Below, piece by piece: positions 18,577 to 62,039 of a stretch of DNA of 64,000 nucleotides. Below the pieces are notes generated by a model. That model was given only the letters and a program-made list of their open reading frames with translations, was not told where the DNA came from and made no database searches. Position 1 is the stretch's first letter, and each line of letters starts with the position of its first letter. The position numbers were made by a program, and so were the translations under genes. The DNA comes from Acidobacteriota bacterium (lineage in GTDB: Bacteria; Acidobacteriota; Thermoanaerobaculia; Multivoradales; J023). The stretch is from the NCBI GenBank assembly GCA_029263395.1, contig JAJCXO010000221.1, forward strand, positions 62,001-126,000, given 5' to 3'.

Positions 18577-19926
18577 TTAGATCGTGTCGGGGAGCTCGTC
18601 TTCAAGGTTACGTATTTGGGGGCGCGAGCTGGCCCACAAGGTGCTCACCATGGCGCCGATGGCAAGGCAGAGGTACATCAAACCGATCCCTCGACCCGGT
18701 CCGACGCCGAGCAGTCGGCCCGCCGTGGATGCTAGTGCGCCGCCTTCGACCATTAGGGGTCCAAAGACATAGTCGGCGAGGGGGCCAGCGAGGAAAAATC
18801 CGATCGGTGAGGTGATCTGGGCGATCAGGCGACGGGCAGCAAACACTCGACCTTGGATGTCGGGTGGCACTTTGCTTTGCCAGATCGCTTGGCTGCAGCC
18901 GCTCGTGAAGGCGAAGCAGAACATCATCAGGAAGAGGCTGATCGCCACCGACCAAGTTGCGGGTTGCAAGCCGACCCCGATCAATGACACTCCGAGGAGG
19001 AAACCGCAGATCAGGATGGCCCGGATTCGACGCCGCGGGCCGCCGGTGATGGTCAGCGTCAGACTGCCCGTCAGTTGGCCCGAGCTTTGGATCGCCATCA
19101 CGATGCCGAGTAGTGCCACCGAGGCAAACGAGCGCACTAACGGGATCACCAAAACAAAGGCGATGCTGAACGCTAGGTTCAATGCCGCAAAGTAGAGCAG
19201 GAGACCGTGGAGCCCAGGACGCAGGCGGATGAATTTCCAGCCTGAGATCGCCTCCTGCCACAGTGACCCACGGCTCTGCTTGCCGGCTTTGCTGGCCGGC
19301 GGTGGCGGGACGTGAATGAACAGCAGTGTCGAGACCGCAAACAAGAAGGTTGCGACGTCGATCAAGATGATGCCACCGAGGCCGATGACGGTGAAGAGGG
19401 CGCCGGCAATTGGTGCCGCAACCAGACTAGCCGAAGCTTGGCCGAGTTGGATCATGCCGCTGGAGCGGCTGAAGTGTCGCTTGGGTACCAGTAACGTGGT
19501 TGCCGCCATGTAGGCTGGCAGCTGGAAGGAACTCAGCAATGAACCGCTGGCAACTACCAGGTAGATGTGCCAAATCTCGAGGGCATCACTCCAGTAGAGA
19601 GCGGCGATCAGCAGTGTGCCGAGGCCGGATCCAAGGTCGGCGGCGAGCATGACTTTGCGCCGATCCCAACGATCGACAAGTGCCCCCGCGAAGGGTGCAA
19701 TGAGCAGGCCGGGCAGACTCACCGAAACTGCAATGAGGGTGAATTGGGTTGCCGACCCGGTCTTTTCGTACACCCAGACGCCGAGGGCAAAACGGGTGAT
19801 ACCCGAGCCGATGAGCGACACCAGCTGCCCGAACCAGAGCACGGCGAAGGTACGGAGGGCACCTGCCGCGGCGTCTAACGCTTTGTCCCGTGGGGTCGTC
19901 TCCTGCTCTGGCGGTTCAGAGGACAC
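18577..19926 (-). CDS. MFS exporter (EntS-like, MFS_3 group)
   Basis: A 449-aa major facilitator with about 12 membrane helices, of the group that includes enterobactin exporter EntS and many exporters encoded with nonribosomal peptide genes. The loop between helices 2 and 3 has the family motif (GALVDRWDRRKVMLAAD); helix 1 reads LWFGQLVSLIGSGITRFALG; a Gly-Arg-x-Phe-Ala-Ala-Arg motif lies in the second half (DIQGRVFAARRL). Translation starts at a GTG with AGGA 7 nt upstream. It lies downstream of ATP-grasp 1 on the same strand, across the nested inverted repeat. Export of a peptide product is inferred from position. Confidence 0.9.
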   Translation of the reverse strand: MSSEPPEQETTPRDKALDAAAGALRTFAVLWFGQLVSLIGSGITRFALGVWVYEKTGSATQFTLIAVSVSLPGLLIAPFAGALVDRWDRRKVMLAADLGSGLGTLLIAALYWSDALEIWHIYLVVASGSLLSSFQLPAYMAATTLLVPKRHFSRSSGMIQLGQASASLVAAPIAGALFTVIGLGGIILIDVATFLFAVSTLLFIHVPPPPASKAGKQSRGSLWQEAISGWKFIRLRPGLHGLLLYFAALNLAFSIAFVLVIPLVRSFASVALLGIVMAIQSSGQLTGSLTLTITGGPRRRIRAILICGFLLGVSLIGVGLQPATWSVAISLFLMMFCFAFTSGCSQAIWQSKVPPDIQGRVFAARRLIAQITSPIGFFLAGPLADYVFGPLMVEGGALASTAGRLLGVGPGRGIGLMYLCLAIGAMVSTLWASSRPQIRNLEDELPDTI

Positions 19927-20086: not shown

Positions 20087-21505
20087 TCAGACCTCGCGGG
20101 CTTCGAAGACGATACCGATACGGCCGCCTTGCGAGATGTTGACCGCGGCCAACTGAGCCCGTGGCGCCATTCGAATGAATTCGCCACCGTAACTATCACC
20201 AAAAACGTAGAGCCCCCAAATAACATCGTAAGGTCCGGCACCGGAGTCACCCAGCTGGTACGTCTGTGGCAAAGGCTCGAGGTATTCCTGGGCGATCCAC
20301 CCGCCGTCTTCGAGCGCTGTGTCGACGTGTTGTTGCCACGCCTTGGTATCGACAAAACGACCGACAACCACCTGAAAACCGGCAAAGCCGAGGCCGGCTT
20401 TGATCACCATCTCTTGCTGGCGGTCGAGCAGAAGTTGGCGCATGGGATGCTGCTGGCCGTGTCGCTCCACAGGTTGGTCTCGCAGATGTCGAGTCCAGGG
20501 GATGTAGCGAGCGATCAGTTGCTGTTCTTCGGACGAGAAGCGAGGCGAGCTCTGGTGTTCCGACAACAACGCCAGGTTCCGTTTGTCGCCGGTTATCATC
20601 CCGATGAGCCCACAGTAGGGGTTGACCTTGCCGGCTTTTGAGCTGCGGAAAATCTGGCTGTTCTGATCCCCTGCACTTTGCTCGATGACGCTGCGGTAGC
20701 GATGGCCATCGAGTTCGAGCCAGCCCTCGGAAAACTTGAGTTCCTGGGCTTTGATGACCCGGATGTGGCCGTGGCGACCGCCACCCATCTGGCGCAGGAT
20801 GGTGTCGAATTCGAGCTCGTATTGCCGCACCGGGTGGCTGCCGAGGGATGTCCTGCCGGCGTCCGAAGCCACGATCAATACGTTGAGCTCCCGTTCACCC
20901 GGCGGCAGGCGACGCAGTGAATCGCGGACGACGTGGCGCAACAGAGTTCGGATCGAGTTGCGGCAGGTGAGCTCCAAGCCCTGTTCGGCGGCGAAAGCAC
21001 TGATTTCGGGATGATCGGTGAAGAGGGGCGCATACACCGTGTGCCGCCAACCTCCGAGGACGCCGAAGTTGTACTCGATACATTTGAGCCCGTCCGCCGT
21101 CGGTATGAAGTCCCCGCGACCGATGGTTTCGTGGATGAAATTCGGTTCTGAGAGCAACAAGCCTGCGGTCATTTCGCTGTCGAGGCGGTAGAAATCCGCC
21201 ACGGCTTTGGGGTCATTGGCGAAGAAGCGGCGCGGTAAATCGCGCACCAGGCGCGCCAAAGCGACGCTCGCTCGTTCGAATTCCCGCCGTTGTTTGGTGT
21301 CGATCAGCACCGGCCAGGGCTGAAGATAATCCTGGCTGGTGTCGACCCCTGAGGGTGTCGGCACCAACTCCAGCGCGGCGGCAAAAAACTCGTCGAACGT
21401 CGCCTTGTCCAGCAGACTTGGCCGACGTTCGACAAATTCCAGGAAGCTCCTGGCATGGCTCGAAACGGTGGCTTGCAACCGTTTCTGCTCGGTCGAAAAT
21501 TGCAT
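20087..21505 (-). CDS. Circularly permuted ATP-grasp-like protein 1
   Basis: A 472-aa soluble protein resembling the circularly permuted ATP-grasp / glutathionylspermidine-synthase-like ligases, which form amide bonds via acyl phosphates. Points of similarity are an acidic substrate strand (DGLKCIEYNFGVLGGW, ~140-157), GMITGDKRNLALLSE (~305-320), a nucleotide-binding strand with an early lysine (MVIKAGLGFAG, ~375-386), and WIAQEYLEP followed by VIWGLYVFGDSYGGEFIRM (~405-450). It is paralogous to the 56692-58248 protein, sharing these blocks in order. In this copy the glycine-rich loop reads KAGLGFAGFQVVVG where copy 2 has KAGQSHAGKGILVG, so a loop lysine is missing. Substrate unknown; capping or conjugating a peptide product is conjecture. 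Confidence 0.72.
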   Translation of the reverse strand: MQFSTEQKRLQATVSSHARSFLEFVERRPSLLDKATFDEFFAAALELVPTPSGVDTSQDYLQPWPVLIDTKQRREFERASVALARLVRDLPRRFFANDPKAVADFYRLDSEMTAGLLLSEPNFIHETIGRGDFIPTADGLKCIEYNFGVLGGWRHTVYAPLFTDHPEISAFAAEQGLELTCRNSIRTLLRHVVRDSLRRLPPGERELNVLIVASDAGRTSLGSHPVRQYELEFDTILRQMGGGRHGHIRVIKAQELKFSEGWLELDGHRYRSVIEQSAGDQNSQIFRSSKAGKVNPYCGLIGMITGDKRNLALLSEHQSSPRFSSEEQQLIARYIPWTRHLRDQPVERHGQQHPMRQLLLDRQQEMVIKAGLGFAGFQVVVGRFVDTKAWQQHVDTALEDGGWIAQEYLEPLPQTYQLGDSGAGPYDVIWGLYVFGDSYGGEFIRMAPRAQLAAVNISQGGRIGIVFEAREV

Positions 21506-24178: not shown

Positions 24179-25177
24179 TTAGTTTGGCGAGCCAGCGCTA
24201 GCTGTTGCCGACCCGGCGCCAGCGTCGGCTTCGAGTAAGCGGCGGACTTGCTCATGGAGTTTGACGCCGTTGAGGCGCCGCTCCGCGGGCAGGGACTTGC
24301 CATGATGCATGTAGTAATCGGGTACCGGCGGGGTCTCTCCCCACTCGGTGCCGGGGGCGTAAACCAGGAACACATCCCAAGCCAGCTCGTCTTCGAGTCC
24401 GATGGGCTTCTGTAACATCTCTACCAGGGTGTGTTCACCGGTCCAGAAATGGGTGGATCGAGGGTCATTCAAGTAGACGCTACCGGAGGGGGCGTCTTCA
24501 GCGGTTTCTTCTCCCAACATCGGACCCCAGACCACAAAGGTCTCGAGCCGGTCATCATCAATTTCGTCGAGTACGTAACGTTGCACCACACGGGCGCTCA
24601 TGCGACAAACCGCTCACGTGGGGGAGAGGGTCAGCACCAACCGCACGTGATCTTTGTTGCGGTTGAATGCCTCGCGCAGCTCGTCTCCTCGATCCGACAT
24701 GGTGGTGACTTCGGGTACCCAGGGCTCCTCGCGGGGCATACCTGGTGGGTCTGTCCAGGTGAGATGGAACGGGATCGTCTTATCGCCGTCGACCACCTCG
24801 CCGGTGAGCTTCTGGCCGTCCTCGGAAAGCTCTCCTTTGAAGATGAAAAGGGCATTTTTGCCGCGTCGCTCCGAATCGCGGCGAAATTCGAGGGTCGCTT
24901 CCGAGCCGTCGAGCTGAATGGTTTCGAAGGGGTGGTAAATGTAGTTCTGCACCGGCATGTCAAAGGTGCCGGCGAGGGTGCCGTCGGGAGCCCGGCCGAT
25001 CTCGACCAGGATGTCAGCCTCAACCTCCGCCTTCTTGAGCACCAGCATCCCCTTCCAGATGCCTTCCAAGCTGCCTTGGGCGGCGAAGCTGGAGATCGGC
25101 AGCATCCCCAGGCTGATGCCGATGGCCAGTGATCTCCACCACCTGGGGTGGACAGTTGTCGCTTGTCTACGACCCAT
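24179..25177 (-). CDS. Secreted thioredoxin-like selenoprotein 1 (UxxC), read through TGA at 24614-24616
   Basis: Read as one 332-codon gene with an in-frame TGA at codon 188. The first part has a signal peptide and a beta-rich domain (GIWKGMLVLKKAEVEAD ... KLTGEVVDGDKTIPFHL). The frame then reads LVLTLSPT-TGA-AVC, followed by RMSARVVQRYVLDEI, ETFVVWGPMLGEE and DPRSTHFW. This is a thioredoxin-fold pattern with Sec replacing the first Cys of a CxxC motif (UxxC). Sequence on both sides of the TGA is homologous to the 55355-56323 gene, where TGA is at the same place. AAGGAG lies 8 nt before ATG 25177. The alternative, two separate genes, would give a second ORF with no ribosome site starting inside the fold. 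It follows the NRPS-PKS gene by 81 nt. Redox partner unknown. Confidence 0.82.
24578..24604 (-). promoter_or_regulatory. Candidate SECIS stem-loop, selenoprotein 1
   Basis: Downstream of the TGA the RNA can pair CGCC with GGUG around a CGUGU loop that begins 21 nt after the UGA. A weaker lower stem (UG/CA, then GC pairs across a small internal loop) extends it. Loop distance fits bacterial SECIS elements; the lower stem is poorer than in copy 2. Confidence 0.45.
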
Positions 25178-25258
25178 CTAGAGTTCTCCTTGTCTTTTCC
25201 TGTTGTGCTTGAACTATTCTGAACGGTGGAATTCAAATGCTAGTTTTGCCCAGTGACA

Positions 25259-28200
25259 CTACTGTTCTCTGGCGAGACGTTGCCGCAGTCGACGCGCCAG
25301 CTCGGCAACGTTGGGCGGATAATTCATGCTGACGTGATCACCCGGGACCGGTTGGATTTCGATACCGGCTTCCGCTAGCCCAACCCAGGGCAGTTCGGGC
25401 CTCGGCGCATCCCCCGGGCGGCGTTCGAGGGCTCGGAAGAAGAGCGCGGCTAGCGCTGCCTGCGGCTGGGGCTCGTAGGCATAAAGTGCAGCAACGTTGG
25501 CGCGGCTGACCCGATAGAGGCGGCGAATCTCGTCTGATCCCATCGCGGGTGCGTCGCTCGACCCGTGATCAGCGTTGGCAGCTCTGACCTCCAACACATG
25601 CGCGAGCTGTTCCGCCTCCGGCATACGACGGAGTTCGTCGACGGGTACCGGGCACGCACCGTTGAAAACCGAGGCCAGGATCGATGCCTCGTCGGGGCGC
25701 GGTGGCAGCTGGTCGAGGCATGGGGAGTCGAGTAACACCAACAGCGCCACCTCTTCGTTGGCCTCGCGCAGCTGGCGTGCCATCTCGAAGGCAACCGAGC
25801 CGCCCATCGAGCTGCCACCGAGCAGATAGGGGCCGTGAGGTTGCACTTGTTGCACCGCTTCCAGGTAATGCGTCGCCATAGCCTCGACCGACTCGAGGGG
25901 CTGCTCTTCGTCAGTGAGTCCGGGGGATTGCACTGCGTAGAACGGCCGATCGGCATTCAGCGTCCGGGCCAAATCGCGGAACCAATAGATGGTGCCGCCA
26001 ACTGGATGGACCATGAACAGTGGCTTGCCAGAGCCTTGGGCGCTCAGGCGTACCAAGCAAGACGGGCGTTCCGGCTGCCCCGGCTGTGCTTCCTGTTGTT
26101 CGCCGATCAGGTCGGCCAAGAGCGCCACAGTGGGCGCTTCGAGCAAGGCTGTGCCGCCGAGCTCGGCGCCGAGGGTGGACCGCAACATTGAAGGGAGGTG
26201 AAGTGCTGAAAGCGAGCTGCCACCAAGCTCGAAGAAGTCGTCGTGGCGACCGATCGGCTCAACCCCGAGAACTTCTGAGAAGGCAGTGGCGATGGCGCGT
26301 TCGGTCTCGGTTTGGGGTGCCGAGTCGGTGGGTGCGGTTTCGCCGTCGGTGTCTGCGGCCGGGGCCGAAGATGGGGACGGGGACGAGAGTGGCAGTGTCT
26401 TGACCACGTCGGTGCTTGCGGCACCTTGCCCCGGAGCCCGGTCGATCCAGAAGCGCTGGCGCTCGAAAGGGTAGGTCGGCAACGGTACCCGCCGCCGCTG
26501 TTCGGACGCCGAATAGGCGGTCCAGTTGATCTCGGATCCGACGGTCCAGAGCCTTCCCAAGGCCAAAAGCAACGCCTCGTATCCGGCCTGGTTGGCTTTG
26601 GGCGGTGGCTGCGAATGGATAATTGCGCCGGCGGCTGCTTTGCCGGGATGTTGGCGTGCGGCGGTTGCCAGCTGACGACCCGGCCCTACTTCCAGCAGCA
26701 GGCGTCCGGCGGGCTCGAAGAGCTCGCAGAAGCCGCGGTCGAGTTGCACGGCATGGCGCAGGTGCTGCCCCCAGTAGGCAGGGTTGGTGGCTTCCTCGGG
26801 ACGGATCCATGTTCCGGTCAGATTGGAGACGTAAGGGATGCTGGGCGGTTGCAGATCGAGGGTCGTGAGCTCATCCACAAAGGGGACTACGATCGGCTCC
26901 ATCATCTGCGAGTGGAAGGCATGAGAGGTGTGCAGTCGGCGATGCGTGATGCCACGGGCTTCGAGTCTCGCTGCTATTACGTCGATAGCGGCGGTTTCGC
27001 CGGAGAGAACACACTGCTCGGGGCTGCTGACGGTCGCCACAGTCAAACATCCGGGCACATGATCCTCGGCCAAGGCCAATGCGTCCTCGGCGGCCAACGA
27101 CACGGCCAGCATTGCACCCGCGGGCAAATCCTGCATCAGGCTGCCGCGGGTCGCGACCAGACGTATCCCTGCCTCCGGAGTGAAAACCCCCGCCACACAA
27201 GCCGCGACGTATTCGCCGAGGCTGTGGCCGAGCATCGCCTCGGGCTCGACTCCCCAATGCCGCCACAATTGCGCCAAAGCGAATTCGACAGCAAACAACA
27301 CGGGTTGCGCATGGCTGGTTTGGTCCAAGTCGACATCAGAGTTGGGTTCGAGCCATTGCCGCAGGTCGACCCCCGTCTCATCTTCGAGGGCATCGGCACA
27401 GCGATCGAGGGCTTGTTGGAAAACCGGTTCGTCGCGGTAAAGGTCGAGTGCCATGCCACGGTGCTGGGCGCCTTGACCCGGAAACAGGAAGGCATGTGAC
27501 CGGCTGCCGGAGTCGGCGACATCAGAGATCACGTGTTGCGGTGCGCCGCCGGTGAGCGCCACGATAGCCTCTTGGCGATCACGGCAGACGACAACCCGGC
27601 GATGGCGAAAGGCCTGACGGCCGACCTGTAACGTATAGGCGACATCGGCCAAGTCGAGTTCGGGATTGGCTTCCAAGGCCTCCGCGAGGTTGGCCGTTGC
27701 CGTGTCGAGGGCAGCCGGTGTCCGGGCGGAGAGTGGCAAAATTTTCCACTCCCGGGCAGCCGAGGTTGGCTCAGGAGTGGGCGCTTCTTCGAGCACCGCG
27801 TGGGCGTTGGTGCCGCCGATGCCAAAGGCGCTGACACCGGCTCGCCGCGGTGCGCCACCCGCTGGCCACGGGGTCAGCTTGGTGTTGACATAAAACGGAC
27901 TGGACTCAAAGTCGATTTTTGGATTCGGCCGGCGAAAGTTGAGGCTGGCCGGGATCTGCCGGTGTTCGAGCGCTAGGACGGTTTTGATGAACCCGGTGAC
28001 ACCGGCTGCGGCATCGAGATGGCCGAGGTTGGTCTTGACTGAGCCGAGAGCGCAGTAACCTCGCCGTTCGGTACTGGCGCGGAAGGCTTCGGTCAAGCCC
28101 GTAACTTCGATCGGGTCACCGAGGGGGGTGCCGGTGCCGTGCGCTTCAACGTACGAGATGGTCTCGGGATCCACCCCTGCCTTGATCTGGGCTTCGCGGA

Positions 28201-31200
28201 TCACCTCGGTCTGGCCTTCGACGCCCGGCGCCGTGAAGCCGGTGCGTAAGGCGCCATCATTGTTGCTGGCGGTGCCCAAAACCACCGCTCGGATGGTGTC
28301 GCCGTCGCGCCGGGCATCCGCCAGTCGTTTCAAGACGACCACGCCGAGGCCACTGCCGGTGGTCATCCCCCGGGCATCGGCGTCGAAGGTGCAGGTATGC
28401 CCGTCCGGCGACTGTACACCGCCCTCGGCATAACGGTGTCCCCCGACTTCGCGGTAGGCGACCGACACGCCACCAGCCAGTGCCATGTCGCAGTCTCCAG
28501 ACAACAGCCCCTGGCAAGCCGTGTGGATTGCGGTCAGCGACGTCGAACAGGCGGTTTGGACGTTGACGCTCGGCCCCCGCAGGTTGAGTTTGTAGGAGAC
28601 GCGGGTCGGCAGGTAGTCCGAGTTGTTGGAAATCAGCAGCTGGAATGGGCCGACAGCTTGGGCGACGTCGGAGCCCGTCAACAGCCTTGGCAGATAGGTG
28701 TTGGCGCTGGCACCGGCATAAACACCGACCCGATCACGATTGGCCGCGTCGCCATAACCCGCCACCTCGAGAGCCTGATGGGCACATTCCAGGAAGTGGC
28801 GATGTTGTGGGTCGAGGACCTGGGCTTCGCGTGGCGGAATCTGAAAGAAGGCGGCGTCGAAGAGTTCGGAGTCATCCAGGGCACCGCGCGCCTTGACGAA
28901 CTGTGGATCGGCGATGGCCGCTTCGTCGAACCCGGCCTGTCGCAACTCGTCGTCGGTGAAGAAGCGGATCAACTCTTCACCGGCGCAGAGCTTGCTCCAC
29001 AGGGTGTCGACGCTGTCGGCTGCCGGGAACCGTCCCGCCATACCGATGACCGCGATCGCCGTCCCACGTTCGACGGCAACCTGCGGCGAGGTCGCAGCCG
29101 CCGCCAGCGGAGCGATCACCGCTTCGTCGTCATCACTGAGGAACTCGGCCAGCGAGCGGACGGTCGGATAACGAAAAAGATCGGTCATCGAAACTTCGAG
29201 GCCGAGCGTCTCCGGCAGCTTGGCGTGGATACGTACCAGCAGCAGTGAATGCCCGCCGAGCTCGAAGAAGTTATCGTTGACGTCGAGATCATCGACACCA
29301 AGGACCTCACGCCACAACTCGACGAGGCGTCTTTCGACCGCGGCCCGCGAGCCCGACCGAGATCCAGACTGCGGAAGCGATGATGGACTCGGCTGCGGTG
29401 CTGGCTGGCGGAACTCCGGCGCCGCTAAGGTAATCTCTTGCGCCGCCCGCCACGCCTCGGGTGACGGCAGCGCTTTCCGATCGAGCTTGCCCGTCGGCGC
29501 CAGGGGCCATTCCACCAACGGTAGGAAGGCGGCCGGCAACATGTATTCGGGTAGTTTCTGGGCCAAGTTAGTGCGCAGGGTTGCCTTGTCGGGAGCCTGT
29601 CCGCGCTGAGGAATGAAGTAGGCTACCAGCCGTTGATCGCCCGGTGCGTCCTCGCGCACCAGCACCACTGCCTCGCGTACTCCGGGTTGTTCGCCGAGTA
29701 CCGCTTCTATTTCCCCGAGCTCGATGCGAAAGCCGCGGACCTTGACTTGGCTGTCGGCCCGGCCGAGGAATTGCAGATTGCCGTCCGGCAGATAACGGGC
29801 TCGATCGCCGGTGCGATATAGGCGACTGCCCGCCGTTTCGCCCCATGGGTCGGGTAGGTACTTCGAAGCGGTCAAGGTCGGCGACCGGGCGTAGCCGATC
29901 GACAGACAGTGGCCGCCAATGTAGAGATCCCCGGGAATCTCGATCGGGGTCAGTTCGAGCTGCTGACCGAGGACCTGGTAGCGAGCATTGGTGATCGGTC
30001 GGCCGTAAGGGATGCTCGGCCAAGCCGGATCAACCTCGCCGATCGGAAAGACATTGGACCAGATGGTCGCTTCGGTCGCCCCGCCGAGACTGATCACTTG
30101 GGTCCGTGGGAAGGTCTCGCGCAGGCGATCGGGCAACGGCACCGGAATCCAGTCGCCACTCAAGAAAACCAAGCGCAGGCTCGGTTCGCGGGTCAACTCA
30201 GCACGCAGTGGCAAAAAACTGGCGAGTTGCTGCAGAGCGGCCGGGGCGGAGTCCCAGAAGGTGATCGGTTCGTCCACTAAGATGCGCACGAGGCGTTCCG
30301 GGTCCCGCAGCTCGTCGCGACTGGCGATGCGGACACTGCCGCCTGCGGCGAGGGTGCCGAAGATGTCGTAGACCGACAAGTCGAACGTCAAGGCGGTGAC
30401 GAACAGCAGGCGGTCGTGAGAGTCGACCGCAAAACGACGGTTGACCCATTCGATCAGGTTGACTGCCGGCCGATGTTGTACCTGGACCCCTTTGGGTTCG
30501 CCGGTCGAGCCCGAAGTGAAGATGATGTAGGCCAAATCCTCGGGGTTGGTGATCGGTGTGAGATCGAGCTCGGGTTGGCGGTCGAGATCGGTGAGCGTCG
30601 CTACCTCCAAGTCGGAGATCGTGCCGTCGAGGTCACTGGCCTGCCGGTCGAGACAGACCGCGTGAGTGAGTCGCGGTAGATCCGCCAGCAATTGGACCTT
30701 CGGCAACAGATCGCCGCCGGTTACCAAGCAGCGAATGCTCATCCGCTCCAAGATGGTGCGGAGGCGTTGCTCCGGCCAGCCAGCGTCGAGCGGTACATAG
30801 GCGGCACCAGCCTTGACGATCCCTAATACCGCGGCAAGCATCTCCGGTGAGCGGTCCAGGTAAACTGCGATCAGGTCTCCGCGGCGTGTTCCGGTGGCCC
30901 GCAGATGGTGCGCTAGTCGATTGGCCCGTTGGTTGAGCTCGCCGTAACTCCACACGCCGCCATCGAACAGCACCGCTGGCTGCCGGGTTTGCTGCGCCAC
31001 TTGTGCCTCGAATAAAGTTTCGAGGGTCGCGTGTTCGGAGAATGGGCCGCGGGTGACATTCCACTCGGTGAGGATCTGGTGACGGGCAGCCTTCGGCAAC
31101 ATCGTGACCGAGTCGAGTTGTCGTCTAGGATCCGCGGCAACACTCGTCAAGAGTTCGCTGAAGGACCTTAGCAGCCGATCGATCGCACTCGTTTCGAACA

Positions 31201-34200
31201 GGTCGACGTTGTAATCGAGGCGAGCTTCCAGGCTTTGTGATCCGTCTTCGACGACCAGTCCGAGATCGTACTTCACGGTCCGATGCCCAGCCTCGAAGGC
31301 TGCGCTGCGCAGGCCGGGCAGGCCGAAGGCACCAGTGGATCGATCGCCGCGGTGGGCATCGAGCAGGAATACCACCTGGACCAGCGGATGGCGCGATAGA
31401 TCGCGTTCTGGTTGGAGGGCCTCGACCAGGCGCTCGAATGGCAAGTCTTGGTGAGCATAGGCACCGAGTGCGCCGTCGCGCACCTGCTTCAACAGGTCGA
31501 GGAACGACAGTTCACCGGCGAGTTGGGAGCGCATCGGCAGGAAGTTGGCGAATAGGCCAATCAATCGTTCGGTCTCGATTTGGCGACGGTTGGCGATTGG
31601 TGTTCCGATCACCAGGTCGGCCTGTCCGGTGGTGCGCCACAGCAGAGTCTTGAACGCCGACAGCAGCACCATGAAGAACGTTGCTCCGTTGCTGCCGCCA
31701 AGGGCGCGGAGCGCGGCGCCAAGGTCCAAAGGCAGCAACGTCCGGCGAGTTGCACCACGGTAGGTTTGGACGACCGGTCGCGGCTTGGAGATCGGCAGAT
31801 CTAGGACGTGGGGAGCGTCACGGAGACATTCGCTCCAATACTCGAGCTGGCGTGTGAGCTCGGCACCGTCTAACCAACGTCGTTGCCAGGCGGCATAATC
31901 GGCATATTGACAAGGTAACGTTGGCAAGTTGGCAGTTCGGCCTGACTTGGTAGCGCCATCTCCCGAACGGGCAAAGCTATACAGTGTAGCAAGCTCGCGA
32001 TCGAGAACATCCAGTGACCAGCCGTCCGCCACGGTGTGATGGAAGGTCAACAGCAGAATGTGGTCCTCGGCGGCGAGGCGGAGCAGCGAGGCTCGCCACA
32101 GCGGGCCACAACCGAGGTCGAAAGCCCGTGCGGCCTCTTCTCTAGTCAGTTGCTCCGCGAGGATCTTTCGGCTGACTTCAGGAAGGGTCGCGAGGTCGAC
32201 CACGGGTAGCGCAAACCGGGGTGCGGGATCGATCACTTGCCGTAGCTGACCCTCGATGACCGCAAAACTGGTCCGTAGTGACTCGTGACGTCGTGCGATG
32301 GCGATCAGGGCCGATGCCAGGGCCGACACGTCGAACTCACCACGATAACGCCCTGCAGTCGGGATGTTGTAAACCGCCCGATCCGGCAAGAGTTGATCGA
32401 GGAACCACAGCCGCTCCTGACCGAAGGACGGCAGCAGTGGAGTGTCTCTCGGTAATCGCCGAATCGGTTCGGTCGGCTCACGAGGCGTATCACTCATCAG
32501 CTCGCGGTCAAGCTCCTTGGCTAGCTCCTCCAATCGCGGCAGCTCGAAGACTCGGCGGACCGGCAGCTCGCTCTTCAAAGCCGTCCGCAAGCGGGCCACC
32601 AATCGGGTTGCCAACAAGGAGTGCCCGCCAAGCTCGAAAAAGTGATCCTCGGCTCCGACATGCTCGACCCCCAGCAGCTCTGCCCAAATGCCCGCGAGAA
32701 TTTCCTCGGCAGGAGTGCGAGGGGCGATGTAGCGGGGTAGGCCCTGGCGGTCCTGGTTCGGTGCTGGGAGAGCGCTACGGTTGACTTTACCGTTGGGTGT
32801 CAAAGGTAACGCCTCGAGCTGCATGAGCCGGGATGGCACCATATGGGCTGGCAACCGCTGGCCCAACCAGGCTTCGAGGGTCTCGCCAGCATTCTCGCTG
32901 TTGGCTGGTGTCCAATAAGCGACCAGCTGAAGGTCACCGGTCGACTGCTCGCGGGCGACCGCCACCGCCTCCTCGACCGTCGGGTGCTGGAGCATGACGG
33001 CTTCGACTTCGCCGAGCTCGATACGAAATCCGCGGATTTTTACTTGATGATCGGCGCGGCCCAGGAAATCGAGTCGGCCGTCCGCCAGCCAACGCACCAA
33101 GTCTCCGGTTCGGTAGCAGCGTGAGCCGGGTTCGGTAGCCAACGGGTCTGGCAGGAAACGTTCGGCGGTCAAGGGGCCGCGACCGAGATAACCCCGGGCG
33201 ACGCCAGCGCCAGCCAGATAGAGTTCGCCGATCGCACCGAGTAGTGCGGGCTCGAGCGCCCGCCCCAGGACGTAGGCACGGCTGGCACCGACCGCCCGTC
33301 CGATGGTGACCGGCAACGACGCACCGCGTTCAACCCGAGACCAGGTGGAATACGTCGTGTCTTCCGACGGGCCGTAGAGGTTGAAGACCCGTTGTACCGA
33401 GTTGACAGCATAAGCTCGCTCGACAAGCTCCCGTGGTAGCGGCTCGCCAGCGAGATTCACCGTCGTCACACCTGCTGGCAACGGCCCGAGTCGCAGCAGC
33501 TCGGCTAGTGCCGAAGGGACGGTGTTGATGAGTCGAACCTCTTTGGCTGCCGGTAGCTCCGGCAGCTGGAGGGCGTTGTCGGCGAGCACCACCGTGCCGC
33601 CCCGGGTCAGCGGCAAGAAAATCTCGAAGATCGATAAATCGAAGCAGATCGAGGTTGCAGCCAGGACACCCGCCAGCTCTTCGTGGCTGAAGGTGTTGGC
33701 GGACCAGTCGAGTAGACCGGCGGCGTTGGCGTGGGTGATCGCGACACCTTTTGGACGGCCGGTCGACCCCGAGGTGTAGATGAGGTAAGCCAGGTTGTCC
33801 GGCTGCGTCTGGACGACTGGTGCGTCGGCGGTAAGCGGGAGCCTGCCTTCCGCCTCCGCGGCGGAGATCTCGTCGAGATAGAGCACGCTTGGGATCTGAT
33901 CGTTCGATCCACTTGCTGGCAAGCATTCGCTCAGCTGGCGTTCGGTCAACACCAGCTGAGCTCCGCTGTCGGCGACCATAAATGCCAGCCGCTGCGCGGG
34001 GTAGGCTGGGTCTAGCGGAACGTAAACGCCGCCGGCCCGCAGAACACCAAGCATTGTCGCCACCATCGCCGGTGACCGAGGAAGACAGATGGCGACCCTG
34101 GTTTCTGGGATTAGTTGCAGACGTGCCGCCAGCCGTCCAGCGTGTGCTTCCAGTTGGCGGTAGGTGAGGCGTTGCTCGCCGTGGATCAAGGCTGTTGCTT

Positions 34201-35857
34201 CTGGTGTCGCGTCCGCCTGAGCTGCGAATCGTTCGAACAGGCCGCCTGTTGACGGTACCGACGCGGTGTCGTTCCACTCCACCAACATCTGGTGGGTTTC
34301 GGCGACGGCGGTCAGCGGCAGCCGGGTCAGCTGGAGATCTGCTGCATAGCTGGCAGCGTGCAGGAGGTTTGTGAAACGGTGCAGCCAGCGCTGGGCCGTC
34401 GTGCGATCGAAGAGGTCGCAGCTGTAGGCCAACTTGAGCTGGAGACCGTGCGTGCTCTCTGCCATCTCTAGCTCGAGATCGAACCGCGCCTCGCGACGCT
34501 CGATGGCCATGGTGGAGGCACGGGTGCCAGGTAAGGCGAGCGTCTCCCCGGACTTTGGTGCGAGCGACAGCAGCACTTGAAATAGTGGCGTGTGGCTGAG
34601 GTTGCGATCCGGCGCTAGCTCTTCGACCAGTTTCTCGAAGGGCAGCTGTCGATAACGGTTGCCCTCGAGGACCTCGTGTCGAACTCGTGCGATCAACTGC
34701 CGCCAGGTGGGCTCACGGCTGGCATCGAGGCGCAACACCAGGGTGTTGACGAACATCCCGACCAAACCTTCAACTTGCGGCTGGTCGCGCCCGGCGATCG
34801 GTGTACCTATCGCGAGATCGGTTTGCCCTGTGGTGCGTTCGAGCAAGGCCGTCCACGCTGCAAGCAAGACCATAAAGAGCGTCGATTCGGATGCTCGTGC
34901 GAGCCGTTCGAGGGTCGCGAGACTGTCGGTATCGAGATGCGCTTCGATCCGCCCGCCGACTTGCGAGCGCACCGGTGGTCGTGGACGATCGGTGGGAAAC
35001 TCCAAGACCGGCGGCAGACCGCTCAACCGCTGCCGCCATTTGGCCATCAGTTCCGACACTTCGGCGCCTTGCGAGCGGTGCTCTTCCCAAGTTGCATAGT
35101 CAGCATACTGGATTGGCAGTGCGGGTAGCTGTGATGGTCGGCCGTCGAGGGCGGCGGCGTAAAGTTCACTGAGCTCGCGCAAAAGGATGCCCATCGACAC
35201 ACCGTCGCTGACAATGTGGTGGACGGTCAGCAACAGCACATGCTCAGACCCTGTTTGACGCGACCCGGCATTCTTTTGGTGGAGCACCGTTTTTTGGTGA
35301 AGTAGCGTCTTCTGATGAAGCACCGTCTTCTGATGAAGCACAGTGATCCTGATGAGCGGTCCGACACTCAGGTCAAAAGGGCGCTGAGCCTCGGCATCAG
35401 CTCGACGGTGCGTTTCTCGACTGCGGTCATCAGCTGCCAGTGCCGTCAGGTCGACGACAGCGAGTGCGTCTGGTGTCGATGGGGCCAAGAGCTGAACGGG
35501 GCGTTCATTCTTGCTCGCGAAAACGGACGCCAACGCCTGTTGACGATGCTGAAGACGATCGAGGGCAGTGGCCAATGCGGCAACATCCAACGGGCCTTCG
35601 AGGCTGAATGCGCGAAAAATATTGTAAGCCGAGCTGCCAGGTTCATACCGGTCTAGAAACCACAGCCGGCGCTGGGCCAGAGATAGCGGAGCCGGCCCTG
35701 AGCCCTCGCGCTTCGGGATACCTCGCTGTTTCGACGTTGCCCTTCGTTGGCGTACTCTCTTCTCGAGCAGCGCCTGAATCGCGTCCGAACGCCGTGGTCG
35801 CTTCGCTGTGACGACGGTGCCGCGAGATCCTGGCCCCGAGCCGATGGGTTCGCTCAT
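25259..35857 (-). CDS. Hybrid NRPS-PKS: C-A-T-C-A-T-KS-AT-ACP-TE (terminal part of line B)
   Basis: A 3532-aa megasynthase. Domains: C1 (~58-500, HHIVSDG), A1 (~540-1030, YTSGSTGRPKG), T1 (GGHSL ~1077), C2 (~1135-1570, HHTVADG), A2 (~1640-2140), T2 (GGHSL ~2199), KS (~2263-2690, TACSTS, EAHGTGT and KTNLGHL intact), AT (~2785-3085, GHSLGEY; HAFHS typical of malonyl specificity), ACP (GGSSL ~3211), TE (~3265-3530, GGSSMGG and a late GDHVSM His). No ketoreductase, dehydratase, methyltransferase or epimerase. Hand-aligned pocket codes: A1 DLFNNALTYK (a form I associate with alanine, low certainty); A2 DLYDFSLIWK (near the cysteine-type DLYNLSLIWK). C1 holds a four-unit 18-bp minisatellite. The basic N-terminal ~50 residues could dock to the acidic tail of the preceding synthetase, whose gene ends 21 nt upstream. 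Confidence 0.96.
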   Translation of the reverse strand: MSEPIGSGPGSRGTVVTAKRPRRSDAIQALLEKRVRQRRATSKQRGIPKREGSGPAPLSLAQRRLWFLDRYEPGSSAYNIFRAFSLEGPLDVAALATALDRLQHRQQALASVFASKNERPVQLLAPSTPDALAVVDLTALAADDRSRETHRRADAEAQRPFDLSVGPLIRITVLHQKTVLHQKTLLHQKTVLHQKNAGSRQTGSEHVLLLTVHHIVSDGVSMGILLRELSELYAAALDGRPSQLPALPIQYADYATWEEHRSQGAEVSELMAKWRQRLSGLPPVLEFPTDRPRPPVRSQVGGRIEAHLDTDSLATLERLARASESTLFMVLLAAWTALLERTTGQTDLAIGTPIAGRDQPQVEGLVGMFVNTLVLRLDASREPTWRQLIARVRHEVLEGNRYRQLPFEKLVEELAPDRNLSHTPLFQVLLSLAPKSGETLALPGTRASTMAIERREARFDLELEMAESTHGLQLKLAYSCDLFDRTTAQRWLHRFTNLLHAASYAADLQLTRLPLTAVAETHQMLVEWNDTASVPSTGGLFERFAAQADATPEATALIHGEQRLTYRQLEAHAGRLAARLQLIPETRVAICLPRSPAMVATMLGVLRAGGVYVPLDPAYPAQRLAFMVADSGAQLVLTERQLSECLPASGSNDQIPSVLYLDEISAAEAEGRLPLTADAPVVQTQPDNLAYLIYTSGSTGRPKGVAITHANAAGLLDWSANTFSHEELAGVLAATSICFDLSIFEIFLPLTRGGTVVLADNALQLPELPAAKEVRLINTVPSALAELLRLGPLPAGVTTVNLAGEPLPRELVERAYAVNSVQRVFNLYGPSEDTTYSTWSRVERGASLPVTIGRAVGASRAYVLGRALEPALLGAIGELYLAGAGVARGYLGRGPLTAERFLPDPLATEPGSRCYRTGDLVRWLADGRLDFLGRADHQVKIRGFRIELGEVEAVMLQHPTVEEAVAVAREQSTGDLQLVAYWTPANSENAGETLEAWLGQRLPAHMVPSRLMQLEALPLTPNGKVNRSALPAPNQDRQGLPRYIAPRTPAEEILAGIWAELLGVEHVGAEDHFFELGGHSLLATRLVARLRTALKSELPVRRVFELPRLEELAKELDRELMSDTPREPTEPIRRLPRDTPLLPSFGQERLWFLDQLLPDRAVYNIPTAGRYRGEFDVSALASALIAIARRHESLRTSFAVIEGQLRQVIDPAPRFALPVVDLATLPEVSRKILAEQLTREEAARAFDLGCGPLWRASLLRLAAEDHILLLTFHHTVADGWSLDVLDRELATLYSFARSGDGATKSGRTANLPTLPCQYADYAAWQRRWLDGAELTRQLEYWSECLRDAPHVLDLPISKPRPVVQTYRGATRRTLLPLDLGAALRALGGSNGATFFMVLLSAFKTLLWRTTGQADLVIGTPIANRRQIETERLIGLFANFLPMRSQLAGELSFLDLLKQVRDGALGAYAHQDLPFERLVEALQPERDLSRHPLVQVVFLLDAHRGDRSTGAFGLPGLRSAAFEAGHRTVKYDLGLVVEDGSQSLEARLDYNVDLFETSAIDRLLRSFSELLTSVAADPRRQLDSVTMLPKAARHQILTEWNVTRGPFSEHATLETLFEAQVAQQTRQPAVLFDGGVWSYGELNQRANRLAHHLRATGTRRGDLIAVYLDRSPEMLAAVLGIVKAGAAYVPLDAGWPEQRLRTILERMSIRCLVTGGDLLPKVQLLADLPRLTHAVCLDRQASDLDGTISDLEVATLTDLDRQPELDLTPITNPEDLAYIIFTSGSTGEPKGVQVQHRPAVNLIEWVNRRFAVDSHDRLLFVTALTFDLSVYDIFGTLAAGGSVRIASRDELRDPERLVRILVDEPITFWDSAPAALQQLASFLPLRAELTREPSLRLVFLSGDWIPVPLPDRLRETFPRTQVISLGGATEATIWSNVFPIGEVDPAWPSIPYGRPITNARYQVLGQQLELTPIEIPGDLYIGGHCLSIGYARSPTLTASKYLPDPWGETAGSRLYRTGDRARYLPDGNLQFLGRADSQVKVRGFRIELGEIEAVLGEQPGVREAVVLVREDAPGDQRLVAYFIPQRGQAPDKATLRTNLAQKLPEYMLPAAFLPLVEWPLAPTGKLDRKALPSPEAWRAAQEITLAAPEFRQPAPQPSPSSLPQSGSRSGSRAAVERRLVELWREVLGVDDLDVNDNFFELGGHSLLLVRIHAKLPETLGLEVSMTDLFRYPTVRSLAEFLSDDDEAVIAPLAAAATSPQVAVERGTAIAVIGMAGRFPAADSVDTLWSKLCAGEELIRFFTDDELRQAGFDEAAIADPQFVKARGALDDSELFDAAFFQIPPREAQVLDPQHRHFLECAHQALEVAGYGDAANRDRVGVYAGASANTYLPRLLTGSDVAQAVGPFQLLISNNSDYLPTRVSYKLNLRGPSVNVQTACSTSLTAIHTACQGLLSGDCDMALAGGVSVAYREVGGHRYAEGGVQSPDGHTCTFDADARGMTTGSGLGVVVLKRLADARRDGDTIRAVVLGTASNNDGALRTGFTAPGVEGQTEVIREAQIKAGVDPETISYVEAHGTGTPLGDPIEVTGLTEAFRASTERRGYCALGSVKTNLGHLDAAAGVTGFIKTVLALEHRQIPASLNFRRPNPKIDFESSPFYVNTKLTPWPAGGAPRRAGVSAFGIGGTNAHAVLEEAPTPEPTSAAREWKILPLSARTPAALDTATANLAEALEANPELDLADVAYTLQVGRQAFRHRRVVVCRDRQEAIVALTGGAPQHVISDVADSGSRSHAFLFPGQGAQHRGMALDLYRDEPVFQQALDRCADALEDETGVDLRQWLEPNSDVDLDQTSHAQPVLFAVEFALAQLWRHWGVEPEAMLGHSLGEYVAACVAGVFTPEAGIRLVATRGSLMQDLPAGAMLAVSLAAEDALALAEDHVPGCLTVATVSSPEQCVLSGETAAIDVIAARLEARGITHRRLHTSHAFHSQMMEPIVVPFVDELTTLDLQPPSIPYVSNLTGTWIRPEEATNPAYWGQHLRHAVQLDRGFCELFEPAGRLLLEVGPGRQLATAARQHPGKAAAGAIIHSQPPPKANQAGYEALLLALGRLWTVGSEINWTAYSASEQRRRVPLPTYPFERQRFWIDRAPGQGAASTDVVKTLPLSSPSPSSAPAADTDGETAPTDSAPQTETERAIATAFSEVLGVEPIGRHDDFFELGGSSLSALHLPSMLRSTLGAELGGTALLEAPTVALLADLIGEQQEAQPGQPERPSCLVRLSAQGSGKPLFMVHPVGGTIYWFRDLARTLNADRPFYAVQSPGLTDEEQPLESVEAMATHYLEAVQQVQPHGPYLLGGSSMGGSVAFEMARQLREANEEVALLVLLDSPCLDQLPPRPDEASILASVFNGACPVPVDELRRMPEAEQLAHVLEVRAANADHGSSDAPAMGSDEIRRLYRVSRANVAALYAYEPQPQAALAALFFRALERRPGDAPRPELPWVGLAEAGIEIQPVPGDHVSMNYPPNVAELARRLRQRLAREQ
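35273..35344. repeat. 18-bp x4 minisatellite inside condensation domain C1
   Basis: Four 18-bp units at 35273-35290, 35291-35308, 35309-35326 and 35327-35344 encode a repeated six-residue T(V/L)LHQK unit. It lies about 20 residues before the catalytic HHIVSDG motif, where homologous domains have a short strand-turn. The last two units are nearly identical, so expansion appears fairly recent. Confidence 0.9.
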
Positions 35858-35878: not shown

Positions 35879-38800
35879 TTATTGTTCGAGCGAGTCGGCG
35901 CTGGGTGTCAGATCGGAGTCAGCGTCTTCCGGCTCGGCCAGGAGTGCGTCTTCGACCTGGGTTGCCAACTCTTCGAGGGTTGGGTACTCGAAGACCACTT
36001 GTAATGCGAGCTCGATCCCGAGCGAGTCATGAATCCTGGCCAGGATGCGTCCGGCTTGTAGGGAATGCCCACCGAGCTGGAAGAAGTTGTCATGGACACT
36101 GATGCCCTCATCGCCCAAGACCTCTGTCCAGACCTCAGCCAGGAATTCTTCCACTGCCGTGCGTGGTGCCACGTGAGCGACTCGGTCCGGCGTCGATTCG
36201 GGCTCTGGCAGAGCCCTTCGATCCACCTTGCCGTTGGGTGATAGCGGTAGGGCCTCGAGCGAGTGGAAGCTTCCGGGCACCATGTAGCGCGGCAATCGGT
36301 CGCCGAGCCAGGAGGCGAGGTCCAATCCGTTGGTTCCCGTTGGGGACGGCACGAAGTAGGCGGCAAGGAACGGTTCGCCAGCTGGTGTCTCACGGACAGA
36401 TACTGCAGCTTGCGATATTCCTGGGTGCTCAGAAATCACCGACTCGATCTCTCCGAGCTCGATGCGGAAGCCGCGCAGTTTGACCTGGTTGTCGATGCGA
36501 CCGATGAAATCGATCCGGCCATCCGGCAAGTAGCGGACCAGATCACCGGTGCGGTAGAGCCGTTCATCGGGCTCGGTGGCAAACGGATCAGGCACAAAAC
36601 TCTCTGCGGTGAGCCGAGGTCGACGGAGGTAGCCGCGGGCGAGCCCGACACCACCGACCGTGAGCTCTCCCGGTACCCCGACGGGCACAGGCAAAAACCG
36701 CTGATCGAGGACGCGAACCCGAAGGTTGTCGATCGGGCGACCAATGGGTGGCGCCGCCGTGTCCACGGGTGCCGTCGCTACCGGTTCAACGACTTCTCGA
36801 GTCGCGACAACGGTACTTTCCGTCGGCCCGTAGTGATTCACGAGCTGAAAGGGTAGCGTGCGTTGGGGAGCGTGATGCAGCTTGTCGCCGCCGACCAGCA
36901 GAGCTCGCAACGTGAGCGTTTCGGGAGGCGGTTCCTGGAGCATCGCTTCAGCGAAGGGTGTTGCCAGGAAAGCGAGATCGATCGCTTCGTCGGCTAGCCA
37001 ACGGTAAAAGAGGGATGGTGCGGATCGCACCGCCTCGTTCGGGAAGTGCAAGCTGGCGCCAGCCGCCAGGTAAGGCCAGATTTCCCAGACCGACGCATCG
37101 AAGGCGAGACTGGCAGTTTTGGCGGCACGATCGCCAGGCGTGACTGCGTAAGTACGCTGGTGCCAAGACACGAGATTGAGTAGACCCCGGTGGCTGAGCT
37201 CGGTGCCCTTGGGGCGACCCGTCGAACCGGAGGTATAAATGATGTATGCCAGATGGCTTCCGCCGACCCGGCTCGCCGGTCGTTCGTCGGAAACCTCGGA
37301 AAGATCGGTGTCGACGGCGACAACTTGTGCCGGGAGACGCTCGGGCAGCTGGTTCCGCGAAAGCTCGTCGATCAACAACACCGAGAGGCCTGAGTCCTCC
37401 AGGGTGTAAGCGATTCGGTCGCGTGGATGTGACGGATCCAGAGGCAGGTAGGCACCCCCGGCCTTGAGGACTGCGAGCAGAGCTACTAGCAGGTCGGGTG
37501 TCGGTGCCATCGCGACGCCAACCAGCACTTCGGGCCCCACCCCGAGATTGATCAGCTGATTGGCCAGTTGATTGGCCCGAGTTTCGAGCTCGCCATAGCT
37601 CAACCGACGGCCGTCGCTGGAGGCGGCCAAGGCTTGCGGGTCGCCGTCAGCTCGTTGCTCGAATAGCTGGTGGACTAAGGGGGCCTCCGGCAGCTCGACG
37701 GCGGTCTGGTTCCAGGCCAGCAGCTGCATTCGCTCACTGTCTCGTAGCAGCGGTAGCTCGGTGATATTGGCTTGCGGATGTGCGGCGACGGCCCGCAGGA
37801 GCTCTTGGTAGTGCCCCCAGATGCGCTCCACAGTGACGGTGTCGAAGAGATCCGTCGAGTACTCCCACATGACGCGCATGATCTCGTCTTCGGCGCTCGC
37901 AACACGGCCAACTCGCTGTTCGGCCCGAGGTCGGAAGACGACGTTGAAGTCCGCCTTGGTTGAGCCGTTGTGGCGCTCCAGCAGCCGCCCTTCGAGGCCG
38001 GCAAAGTCGATGTCCGGTAGCGGTGAATCATGGAAGCTGAACATGTATTGGAATACGGGATTACGCGACAGGTCCCGCCGCGGCGCTAGTGCGTCTACCA
38101 AGCGGTCGAAGGGGAGATCTTGATGTTCCTGCGCGGCGAGGGTCATCGTACGGACTCGCGCCAGGAGTTCACGGAAGGTGGGCTGCCCGCGGACATCACC
38201 TCTTAGGACGATGGTGTTGACGATCATCCCGATCAGGGCCTCGATTTCGCGTAACGTCCGGTTGGCGACACCACAGCCGGTGACGAACAGCGATTCACCG
38301 CTATACCGATAGATCAAGACCTGGAAGGTGGCCAGCATGGTCATGAATAGTGTGACGCCTTCGCGGCGGCTGGCAGTCCGCAACTGGCCGTAGAGGTCTG
38401 CCGGCAGGTCAGCATCGAGGCGTGCGCCGCGAAAGCTCTGCCTTGGTGGTCGTGGTCGATCAGTTGGTAGGTCGAGCACCAGCGGACAACCTTCGAGTTG
38501 TTGGCGAAAGAAGGCGACGCGTTCAGCGAGCACCTCTCCCGTCATCCACTGTTCCTGCCAGGCCGCATAGTCGGCGAATTGGATCGGCAGTTCGGGCAAC
38601 GGTGATGGGCGCCCCGCGGCGAAGGCTTCGTAGAGCGCCATCAGCTCCTGTAGCAGCACGCCGACCGACCAGCCGTCGTGCACAAAGTGGTGTTCCGCTT
38701 GGATCAGTAGATGTTCGTTCTCGTCGAGGTGAGCCAAGGTCCATTCGGCAAGCGGTAGCTGGCTGAGGTCGAAGTCCCGTTGTACCACCTGACGCGTGAG

Positions 38801-40966: not shown

Positions 40967-41594
40967 CTGGATTCCAACCTGAAGCTGCTGCGCGTAGCTC
41001 CACTGAGTGTGCGTTGCCGGCACACGCCTTGTTAACTCACACGTCATCCGTGGGCGCCCTGGCCTCAGGACAACCACGCCGACATAGCAAGAGAGTCGCG
41101 CTAAACGTTAGATCTTAACGAAAGAGAAAGCTTTTTCTCTGACCGCTCGCTGGCTGCGGCATAGCCCCTTGGGGGTCAGAGGGATGTCAACCTGTCCGAG
41201 ATCAGGGAGACTCTATCAAAAAATCTGAAGACATAGCGATTTTTCGATAGAAGAGGAACGTTCAATGAGGAGAGACAATCTCTACATTAATACTGCTGCC
41301 ACCGTTTCACTTCTCGTTTGAACGATACGCCTGGGCCCCTCGGTGCAGGGGTTGTCATTCCCAGAGATCGAAGCAGAAAGACCGCCATCATCTTCGGTCG
41401 AACCTGTGACGAGTCAGTTCTTTCCCTGTGCAGTTCAGTAAGGCAGTGTGGAATCAGCAAGGCTGCGTAGTTCAGTGAGTGGAAGGTCCGTGGAGTCTCG
41501 TTGTCAGCTCTGTGCGAGGGAATATTGAAATATTCAAAAAGGAAAATAAAAGATGCGAACTGTAATTCGATACCGATGAAATCTTTGTAGGTTT
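40967..41594. other. 628-bp intergenic region upstream of line B
   Basis: Lower GC than its surroundings, with no credible gene. It should contain the line B promoter. Two small palindromes are visible, AGAGAAA-GCTT-TTTCTCT (41123-41140) and AGAGA-CAA-TCTCT (41273-41285). No confident -35/-10 pair was identified. Confidence 0.45.
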
Positions 41595-41916: not shown

Positions 41917-43002
41917 CTAGTTCTTCTTCTTGTCACTGGGCGAGCCCGCAAGGAAGAGGCGGACCTCTTCGTAGAGCTGGTGGCGCTGCTTCTCGAGCGA
42001 TAACACGTGGGTGCCTCGGCCGATGACGACCAAACGTTTGATCGGGGTGGCGAGCCCTTCAAAGATCCAGCGTGCATCATCAAAGTTCGAAACCGTGTCC
42101 CATTCGCCACGCAGGACGAGGGTCGGCACGGTGATTTGGCTCGGATTCAGGTAGTGGCGGCCATGCCAAGCGTCGTCTAGATCGAGACGCCAGCCTCCAG
42201 GTTGGCGGACTGCGGCGGGCTCGCGGTTAGATGCGGTTTGGTCTTCGGCAAGCCAGGCAGCGCCCCAATCTCGCAGCACGCCGTCGGTCAATGCTGGTGC
42301 TTCCCCGTCTGGGACCTGGCGTTGGAAAAGTGCCAGGCGTCGTTCGGGTGTCATTTCCACGTAGGCCCCCTTGGGCTGTGGGCTAGGAGTCGGGTTCTCG
42401 CGTTGGCCAAAGGCGGCGAAGAGTACCAGTCGCTCTAGGGCATCGGGTGTCCGCCCAGCATAAAGCCCGGCCACCGTCGCGCCCCATGATTGGCCAATCA
42501 GGGAGAGTTTTTCGACTCCCGTCTCACGACGAATGTGATCGATTGCAAGTTGGACATCTTCGATAACCTCGACGGCACGCCCCAGAGGTTGATGAGCCTC
42601 AGTAGGTTCGGCCATTTCGGGGTAGGGGTCAGCCGCGCCATAGCCGAGTAGATCGAGTCCCCAGACGTCATAACCTGCTGCCGACAGGTCGTCCATCCAA
42701 GAGGTGCCTTGGATTCGGTAGCCAGCCCCGGTCATCGTCGAAAAACTGGCTGGATGAAGTATGAGGACCACTTTGCTGGTCGTGGCTTTGGCTGTTTTTG
42801 ACGGCAGATGCCACAGCGCCAGTTCGAGACCATCGATTCGGCTCGCTAGCCGCTGTTCTTGTGGCTTTGTATCCGCTGTTTCGGTAGCGACCAAAGCAGT
42901 CGAGAGCGTAAACAACAGTGTGATCGCCATTGCCATGCTGAGGGATGTAAGGTCTTTCATCCGGTACCGCTGTTTCCTGAAGAGACGGTCTTCCAGTTTC
43001 AT
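41917..43002 (-). CDS. Exported alpha/beta hydrolase
   Basis: A 361-aa alpha/beta-hydrolase-fold protein with an N-terminal signal sequence (TSLSMAMAITLLFTLSTALV, ~19-38). The nucleophile elbow is GQSWGA (~170), the likely acid is Asp in RGEWDTVSN (~297), and the likely His is in GRGTHVLS (~328). Its ATG overlaps the stop of the line A synthase gene (ATGA), so it is coupled to it. Because it is exported, it is not a normal editing type II thioesterase; it could process or detoxify the product in the periplasm. That is inference. Substrate unknown. Confidence 0.85.
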   Translation of the reverse strand: MKLEDRLFRKQRYRMKDLTSLSMAMAITLLFTLSTALVATETADTKPQEQRLASRIDGLELALWHLPSKTAKATTSKVVLILHPASFSTMTGAGYRIQGTSWMDDLSAAGYDVWGLDLLGYGAADPYPEMAEPTEAHQPLGRAVEVIEDVQLAIDHIRRETGVEKLSLIGQSWGATVAGLYAGRTPDALERLVLFAAFGQRENPTPSPQPKGAYVEMTPERRLALFQRQVPDGEAPALTDGVLRDWGAAWLAEDQTASNREPAAVRQPGGWRLDLDDAWHGRHYLNPSQITVPTLVLRGEWDTVSNFDDARWIFEGLATPIKRLVVIGRGTHVLSLEKQRHQLYEEVRLFLAGSPSDKKKN

Positions 43003-61896: not shown

Positions 61897-62039
61897 CTGA
61901 GTTGTGAAAAGGTACGGGAGATCGGTTCGGATCTATATAAACCTACGTCGTGAGGCGAGGGTTTGTTCCACCCCACACCAGATATCTTCAACTTTATTGA
62001 GGACGGTATTTTACCAGATATGAAAGGGCGTCACCCAAA

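Follow-up and report, generated by a model that had tools for sequence, protein, structure and literature searches.

Putative selenoproteins at both ends of an NRPS-PKS gene run in an Acidobacteriota genome

In an Acidobacteriota genome (GenBank assembly GCA_029263395.1), a reading frame next to an NRPS-PKS gene is interrupted by a TGA, which raises the question of whether this codon is a stop or encodes selenocysteine (Sec) and, if the latter, what a selenoprotein would do beside a natural-product assembly line. An earlier note, made from the sequence alone, had read the frame as that of a secreted oxidoreductase with Sec in place of the first Cys of a thioredoxin-type redox motif (SPT-U-AVC). 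The window analyzed here is the whole stretch of 64,000 nucleotides that holds this frame (positions 62,001 to 126,000 of contig JAJCXO010000221.1). The in-frame TGA, the motif and the coordinates were all correct in that note, and the gene (hereafter gene A) lies on the minus strand together with the other features of Table 1.

Table 1. Features of the window discussed in the text (window positions; NRPS-PKS 1 and 3 are also called NRPS 1 and 3).
Feature	Position	Strand	Basis
Selenoprotein B gene, paralogue, 322 aa, U182 (SPT-U-TIC), first gene of the putative operon	55355..56323	-	own-genome search
Sec codon TGA, gene B	55778..55780	-	sequence
bSECIS-like hairpin, gene B: GCGCC-CGGGU-GGUGC	55747..55761	-	
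NRPS-PKS 1: A-T-C-A-T-C-A(Cys-like)-T-KS-AT-T-TE	42999..55250	-	domain annotation
Last A domain of NRPS 1, Cys-like code DLYAFSLVWK	47688..48743	-	
Alpha/beta hydrolase in the putative operon	41917..43002	-	annotation
NRPS 2: A-T-C-A-T	35879..41077	-	domain annotation
NRPS-PKS 3: C-A-T-C-A(Cys-like)-T-KS-AT-T-TE	25259..35857	-	domain annotation
Last A domain of NRPS 3, Cys-like code DLYAFSLIWK, SLGGATEA motif	29891..31012	-	
AAGGAG, ribosome-binding-site-like, gene A	25186..25191	-	sequence
Selenoprotein A gene, 332 aa, U188 (SPT-U-AVC)	24179..25177	-	frame translation, homologue alignment
8-stranded beta-barrel domain of A (residues 39-143), predicted	24749..25063	-	AlphaFold, structure comparison
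Thioredoxin-fold domain of A (residues 157-326), predicted	24200..24709	-	AlphaFold, structure comparison
Sec codon TGA, gene A	24614..24616	-	alignment with Cys codons TGC in G034, G040, G069
bSECIS-like hairpin, gene A: GCGCC-CGUGU-GGUGC, loop 21 nt after UGA	24583..24597	-	
472-aa protein of no known family, recurs beside selenoprotein gene in G003, G035, G040	20087..21505	-	
MFS exporter, recurs beside selenoprotein gene in G035, G040	18577..19926	-	

Probable recoding of the in-frame TGA

Gene A starts at an ATG (25177) preceded by AAGGAG, and its frame runs through 187 codons to the TGA and then through a further 144 codons to a TAA, which places U188 within LTLSPT-U-AVCRMSARVVQ. At the 41 homologous loci that were read, the codon at this position was TGA in 33 and TGC or TGT in eight, i.e., homologues have Cys where this frame has its UGA. 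Such Cys homologues had been proposed as a check by the earlier note; they read straight through and neither end before the TGA position nor start after it. On the family tree, Sec and Cys replaced each other at least six times. A search of the same genome retrieved gene B, whose product is 48% identical to that of A (E 8.5e-94) with the TGA at the same codon, and a B orthologue in another genome (80% identical) also has its TGA there. For the sequence after the TGA, comparison of B with G003 gave a pN of 0.088 and a pS of 0.498, which points to purifying selection acting downstream of this codon.

All four genes of the Sec machinery whose presence was in question (selA, selB, selC and selD) are found in the genome, with scores of 68 bits for tRNA-Sec, 346 for SelB, 534 for SelA and 365 for SelD, the last with an in-frame TGA of its own. 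SelB was above the cut-off in 44 of the 47 genomes with the family versus 210 of the 349 without it (p 9e-7). The three family genomes without SelB above the cut-off are G382, in which the sole copy is a Cys version and tRNA-Sec is likewise missing; G323, with a completeness of 72%; and G300, a fragmented genome.

Using the bSECIS model of PMC13188914, with a stem of at least 5 bp and a G in the first two loop positions as the criterion, a hairpin was found in 33/33 TGA genes versus 0/8 Cys genes; the stem was missing in five of the latter, the loop G in two, and in one the loop was too near the codon. The hairpins of A and B have a 5-bp stem, a 5-nt loop and a spacing of 21 nt. With flanks, and with the hairpin required, their folding energies were -10.8 and -8.8 kcal/mol, respectively (only -5.7 for the hairpin alone), and a blind fold of the local A and B sequences was no better than that of shuffles. 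In the single-domain group of relatives, three pairs of the stem have changed on either side, and the covariation score of the stem exceeded that of all shuffles. The hairpin of the A/B group is present in all members and nearly invariant, so covariation is no test for it; given this invariance and the blind fold, we consider the A/B hairpin supportive and not decisive. The putative assignment of Sec is carried by the conservation pattern and the machinery. An ATG, TTG or GTG lies five codons past the TGA, right before the stem, in all five two-domain TGA genes (24599-24601 and 55763-55765 in the window, and also L026, L071 and L074) and in none of the three two-domain Cys genes. This triplet may stem from a hydrophobic residue combined with the SECIS stem.

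Gene A thus almost certainly encodes a selenoprotein, in which we infer that UGA is decoded as Sec. The start-like triplets speak for the opposite reading, in which the TGA is a true stop and the locus consists of two genes with a restart at 24601, or of a pseudogene. That reading is extremely improbable: TGA is kept over large distances with apparent selection on what follows it, the machinery is complete, and the Cys homologues are unbroken. Moreover, a protein begun at 24601 would start within the predicted helix behind the active site, and the sequence before this codon shows no evident ribosome site, much as the earlier note had argued; a split would cut the protein at its predicted active-site helix. 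A genuine stop was rejected on account of the continuous Cys homologues and the common TGA, and an altered genetic code was ruled out because TGA is the ordinary stop of other window genes (NRPS 1, the ABC transporter genes and the gene at 20087-21505), which shows that the code is not altered in general. An Rfam scan of the region returned chance-level matches only, and a search of a plasmid collection gave no match.

Protein family, gene neighborhood and the terminal Cys-ketide module

An AlphaFold model built from 34 sequences (pLDDT 91, pTM 0.84) predicts two domains behind an N-terminal hydrophobic helix that is, by inspection, a signal peptide. The best structural relatives of the C-terminal domain are GPX8, DsbF, ResA and DsbE/TlpA (Z 10-13), and the UxxC motif sits at the start of the first helix of the predicted thioredoxin fold; model and structure comparison back the UxxC thioredoxin-type fold that had been read from the sequence. 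Structure comparison places the predicted N-terminal barrel near those of the lipocalin and streptavidin type (Z about 11, a score at which many folds tie). Its sequence relatives precede alpha/beta hydrolases and beta-lactamases, and it therefore appears to be a reusable module. Searches of Pfam and NCBIfam gave no family match for A or B and only marginal thioredoxin-like scores among members (for PF00085, one weak match among 34 relatives), i.e., the proteins are TlpA-like thioredoxins by predicted fold and not by Pfam or NCBIfam membership.

Relatives of the C-terminal domain were found in 47 of 396 sampled Acidobacteriota genomes and, within the order, in 15 of 72 genomes; they share SPT-U/C-xxC, a VWxPxL segment, D-x-R...W, A-W-D, W and P-x-P. 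Two-domain members group into one clade (98/92), and a class-wide profile search retrieved exactly eight such genes, in 7 of 149 genomes. Five of these genes have TGA and three have Cys, so Sec is not essential, and both versions occur within single families (G035/G034 and G071/G069). Some single-domain relatives are fused to HMA (L046, L048) or MerT (L047) domains (genomes G112, G156 and G279), which suggests that some members of the family have a role related to heavy metals or mercury. The earlier note had described neither selenoprotein B at the far end of the run, nor the barrel domain, nor this wider single-domain family.

All eight two-domain genes, from seven genomes and four families, adjoin NRPS or NRPS-PKS genes, lying upstream or downstream of them or between them, versus 1 of 16 single-domain loci (p 3e-5 by genome, a value that overstates independence because the genomes are related). 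The recurrence extends the pairing first seen in the window. The gene order around the two-domain genes varies among genomes. At the lone single-domain locus near an NRPS (L115, G036:C73) the Sec gene lies by the end of the NRPS operon on the opposite strand, and the single-domain copy in G069 has no NRPS linkage. These results indicate that the selenoprotein is very probably a member of the biosynthetic cluster.

Within the window the same-strand order is B, NRPS-PKS 1, hydrolase, NRPS 2, NRPS-PKS 3 and A, and from strand and order this run would form a single transcript. It contains two TE-ended lines that share their type of terminal Cys-ketide module (25259-55250), with a selenoprotein gene at either end. 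In the congener OFTM268 (Acidobacteriota), the sole match in a pattern scan of genome contigs, a B gene lies upstream of an orthologous NRPS (proteins 80% and 75% identical). Upstream of the cluster, at 58229-61896, lie ABC transporter genes that encode two ATPases and an ABC-2 membrane protein; two of these genes are kept beside gene B in OFTM268.

The earlier note had called a link to the cysteine-like last A domain speculative. A terminal C-A(Cys-like)-T-KS-AT-T-TE module, with the A code DLYAFSL[VI]WK and a [SG]LGGATEA motif, is present in 5/5 complete lines (the two in the window and those of G035, G034 and G040), and this shared module supports the link. Contig ends truncate the lines of G003 and G071; in G069 the gene is surrounded by NRPS genes that have Cys-like A domains, and no TE-ended module was seen in the part read. 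Solved relatives of the last A domain include the Cys-activating BmdB and PchE. The code found in the window is two positions off published Cys codes, which include DLYNLSLIWK (PMC12283262). The C domains before the Cys-like A domains of the window have HHxxxD motifs and not the cyclization motif, so a free thiol would be expected on the product, and no ketoreductase or cyclization domain was seen in the assembly lines of this cluster type. The other A codes (DAWTLGHVVK, the Gly-like DILTMGLIWK and the Ala-like DLFVNALTYK) are too uncertain for product prediction. Twelve further stretches of the class near strong matches to this A domain, some cut by contig ends, contained no selenoprotein homologue, and a TE-ended Cys-ketide module was not seen complete in any of them. 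Cys-like A domains are also found in NRPS lines that lack a selenoprotein gene (G000:C138, G069:C31, G035:C50 and G071:C113).

Proposed role and rival explanations

The best explanation overall, and one that we consider probable, is that A and B are cluster selenoproteins performing periplasmic thiol-disulfide chemistry on the Cys-ketide product. According to this scheme, SelB and tRNA-Sec would decode UGA as Sec, aided by the hairpin about 21 nt downstream, and both proteins would be secreted through their signal peptide, with a lipocalin-like barrel and a TlpA/ResA/GPX-type domain bearing the UxxC active site. The assembly line would add Cys and then one malonate-type unit before release by the thioesterase, and the free-thiol product would be exported, probably by the neighboring MFS pump. 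In the periplasm the barrel would bind the peptide, Sec would attack the peptide's thiol or disulfide, and the exchange would be completed by the resolving Cys. The substrate that we infer, the thiol of the Cys-ketide, has roughly even chances of being the true one. The direction may be oxidation (disulfide formation, possibly between two products) or reduction (keeping the thiol active, or self-protection), two options that the sequence does not separate. This genome has one putative selenoprotein per TE-ended line, and the two thiol products might even pair through a disulfide. Tentatively, and with somewhat less confidence, the two-domain family could represent a selenium-dependent tailoring or handling step in NRP biosynthesis dedicated to Cys-ketide-thiol peptides.

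Two other roles have to be weighed against product handling. The cluster selenoprotein could instead protect the producer, acting in the periplasm as a reductase or peroxidase to repair the damage done by a thiol-reactive, redox-active or metal-binding product. The predicted fold near GPX and DsbE/TlpA is compatible with such protection, the HMA and MerT-type fusions of single-domain relatives fit a stress role, and the location at the edge of the operon suits an accessory gene. We regard it as rather unlikely, since the strong match with the Cys-ketide-TE module points to the product thiol and the presence of two diverged copies, one per TE-ended line, is more in keeping with product handling. 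A general periplasmic selenoprotein that stands beside NRPS genes by chance or shared regulation, with no role in the pathway, would agree with the occurrence of single-domain relatives across the phylum without NRPS linkage, and the count is less independent because the genomes are related. This is very unlikely: the adjacency holds for every two-domain gene across four families in differing arrangements, the neighboring lines share their terminal module, and G069 also has a single-domain copy with no NRPS linkage.

Significance and comparison with known systems

If this reading is true, selenium becomes part of natural-product biosynthesis in the form of a catalytic residue. Standard gene callers end these genes at the UGA, and cluster-mining tools would therefore miss the enzyme. 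The signature of a Cys-ketide-TE module plus an SPT-U/C-xxC gene makes likely thiol or disulfide products findable, and a direct test of what Sec adds is offered by G035/G034 and G071/G069, family pairs in which the enzyme occurs naturally with either Sec or Cys. The earlier note knew of no description of this combination; likewise, no selenoprotein of an NRPS or PKS pathway was found in the literature searched or in the 2026 catalogue of prokaryotic selenoproteins (PMC13188914). As far as that literature shows, the family would be new, as would its two-domain form and the occurrence of that form in a Cys-ketide NRPS-PKS cluster.

Secreted UxxC thioredoxin-like selenoproteins are themselves a known kind (PMC13188914), and single-domain members may already be counted under the broad Trx-like heading. 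A and B resemble TlpA/ResA/CcmG/DsbE-type oxidoreductases and thioredoxin-fold GPX in the predicted fold of residues 157-326 (Z 10-13), in U/CxxC and in the signal peptide, and differ from them in having no sequence-family match, in the N-terminal barrel, in the attacking Sec and in the NRPS-PKS linkage. With the catalogued UxxC selenoproteins (Trx-like, DsbG-like, GOS_C, SaoT and HUIPC; PMC13188914, Table 1) they share the predicted thioredoxin-type fold, putative Sec as the first residue of UxxC and the bSECIS-like hairpin; however, the family described here has no match to their NCBIfam or Pfam models, and none of those proteins has been described in an NRPS cluster. The grd, prd, SAO and Tso operons likewise hold several selenoprotein genes each, but they are catabolic, metal-related or have no role assigned, whereas the operon described here is an NRPS-PKS cluster (PMC13188914). 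Finally, the selenobacteriocin (TIGR04081, PMC13188914) also places Sec in a natural-product context, with the difference that there Sec is part of the peptide itself, while here it would belong to an accessory protein of the NRPS-PKS pathway.
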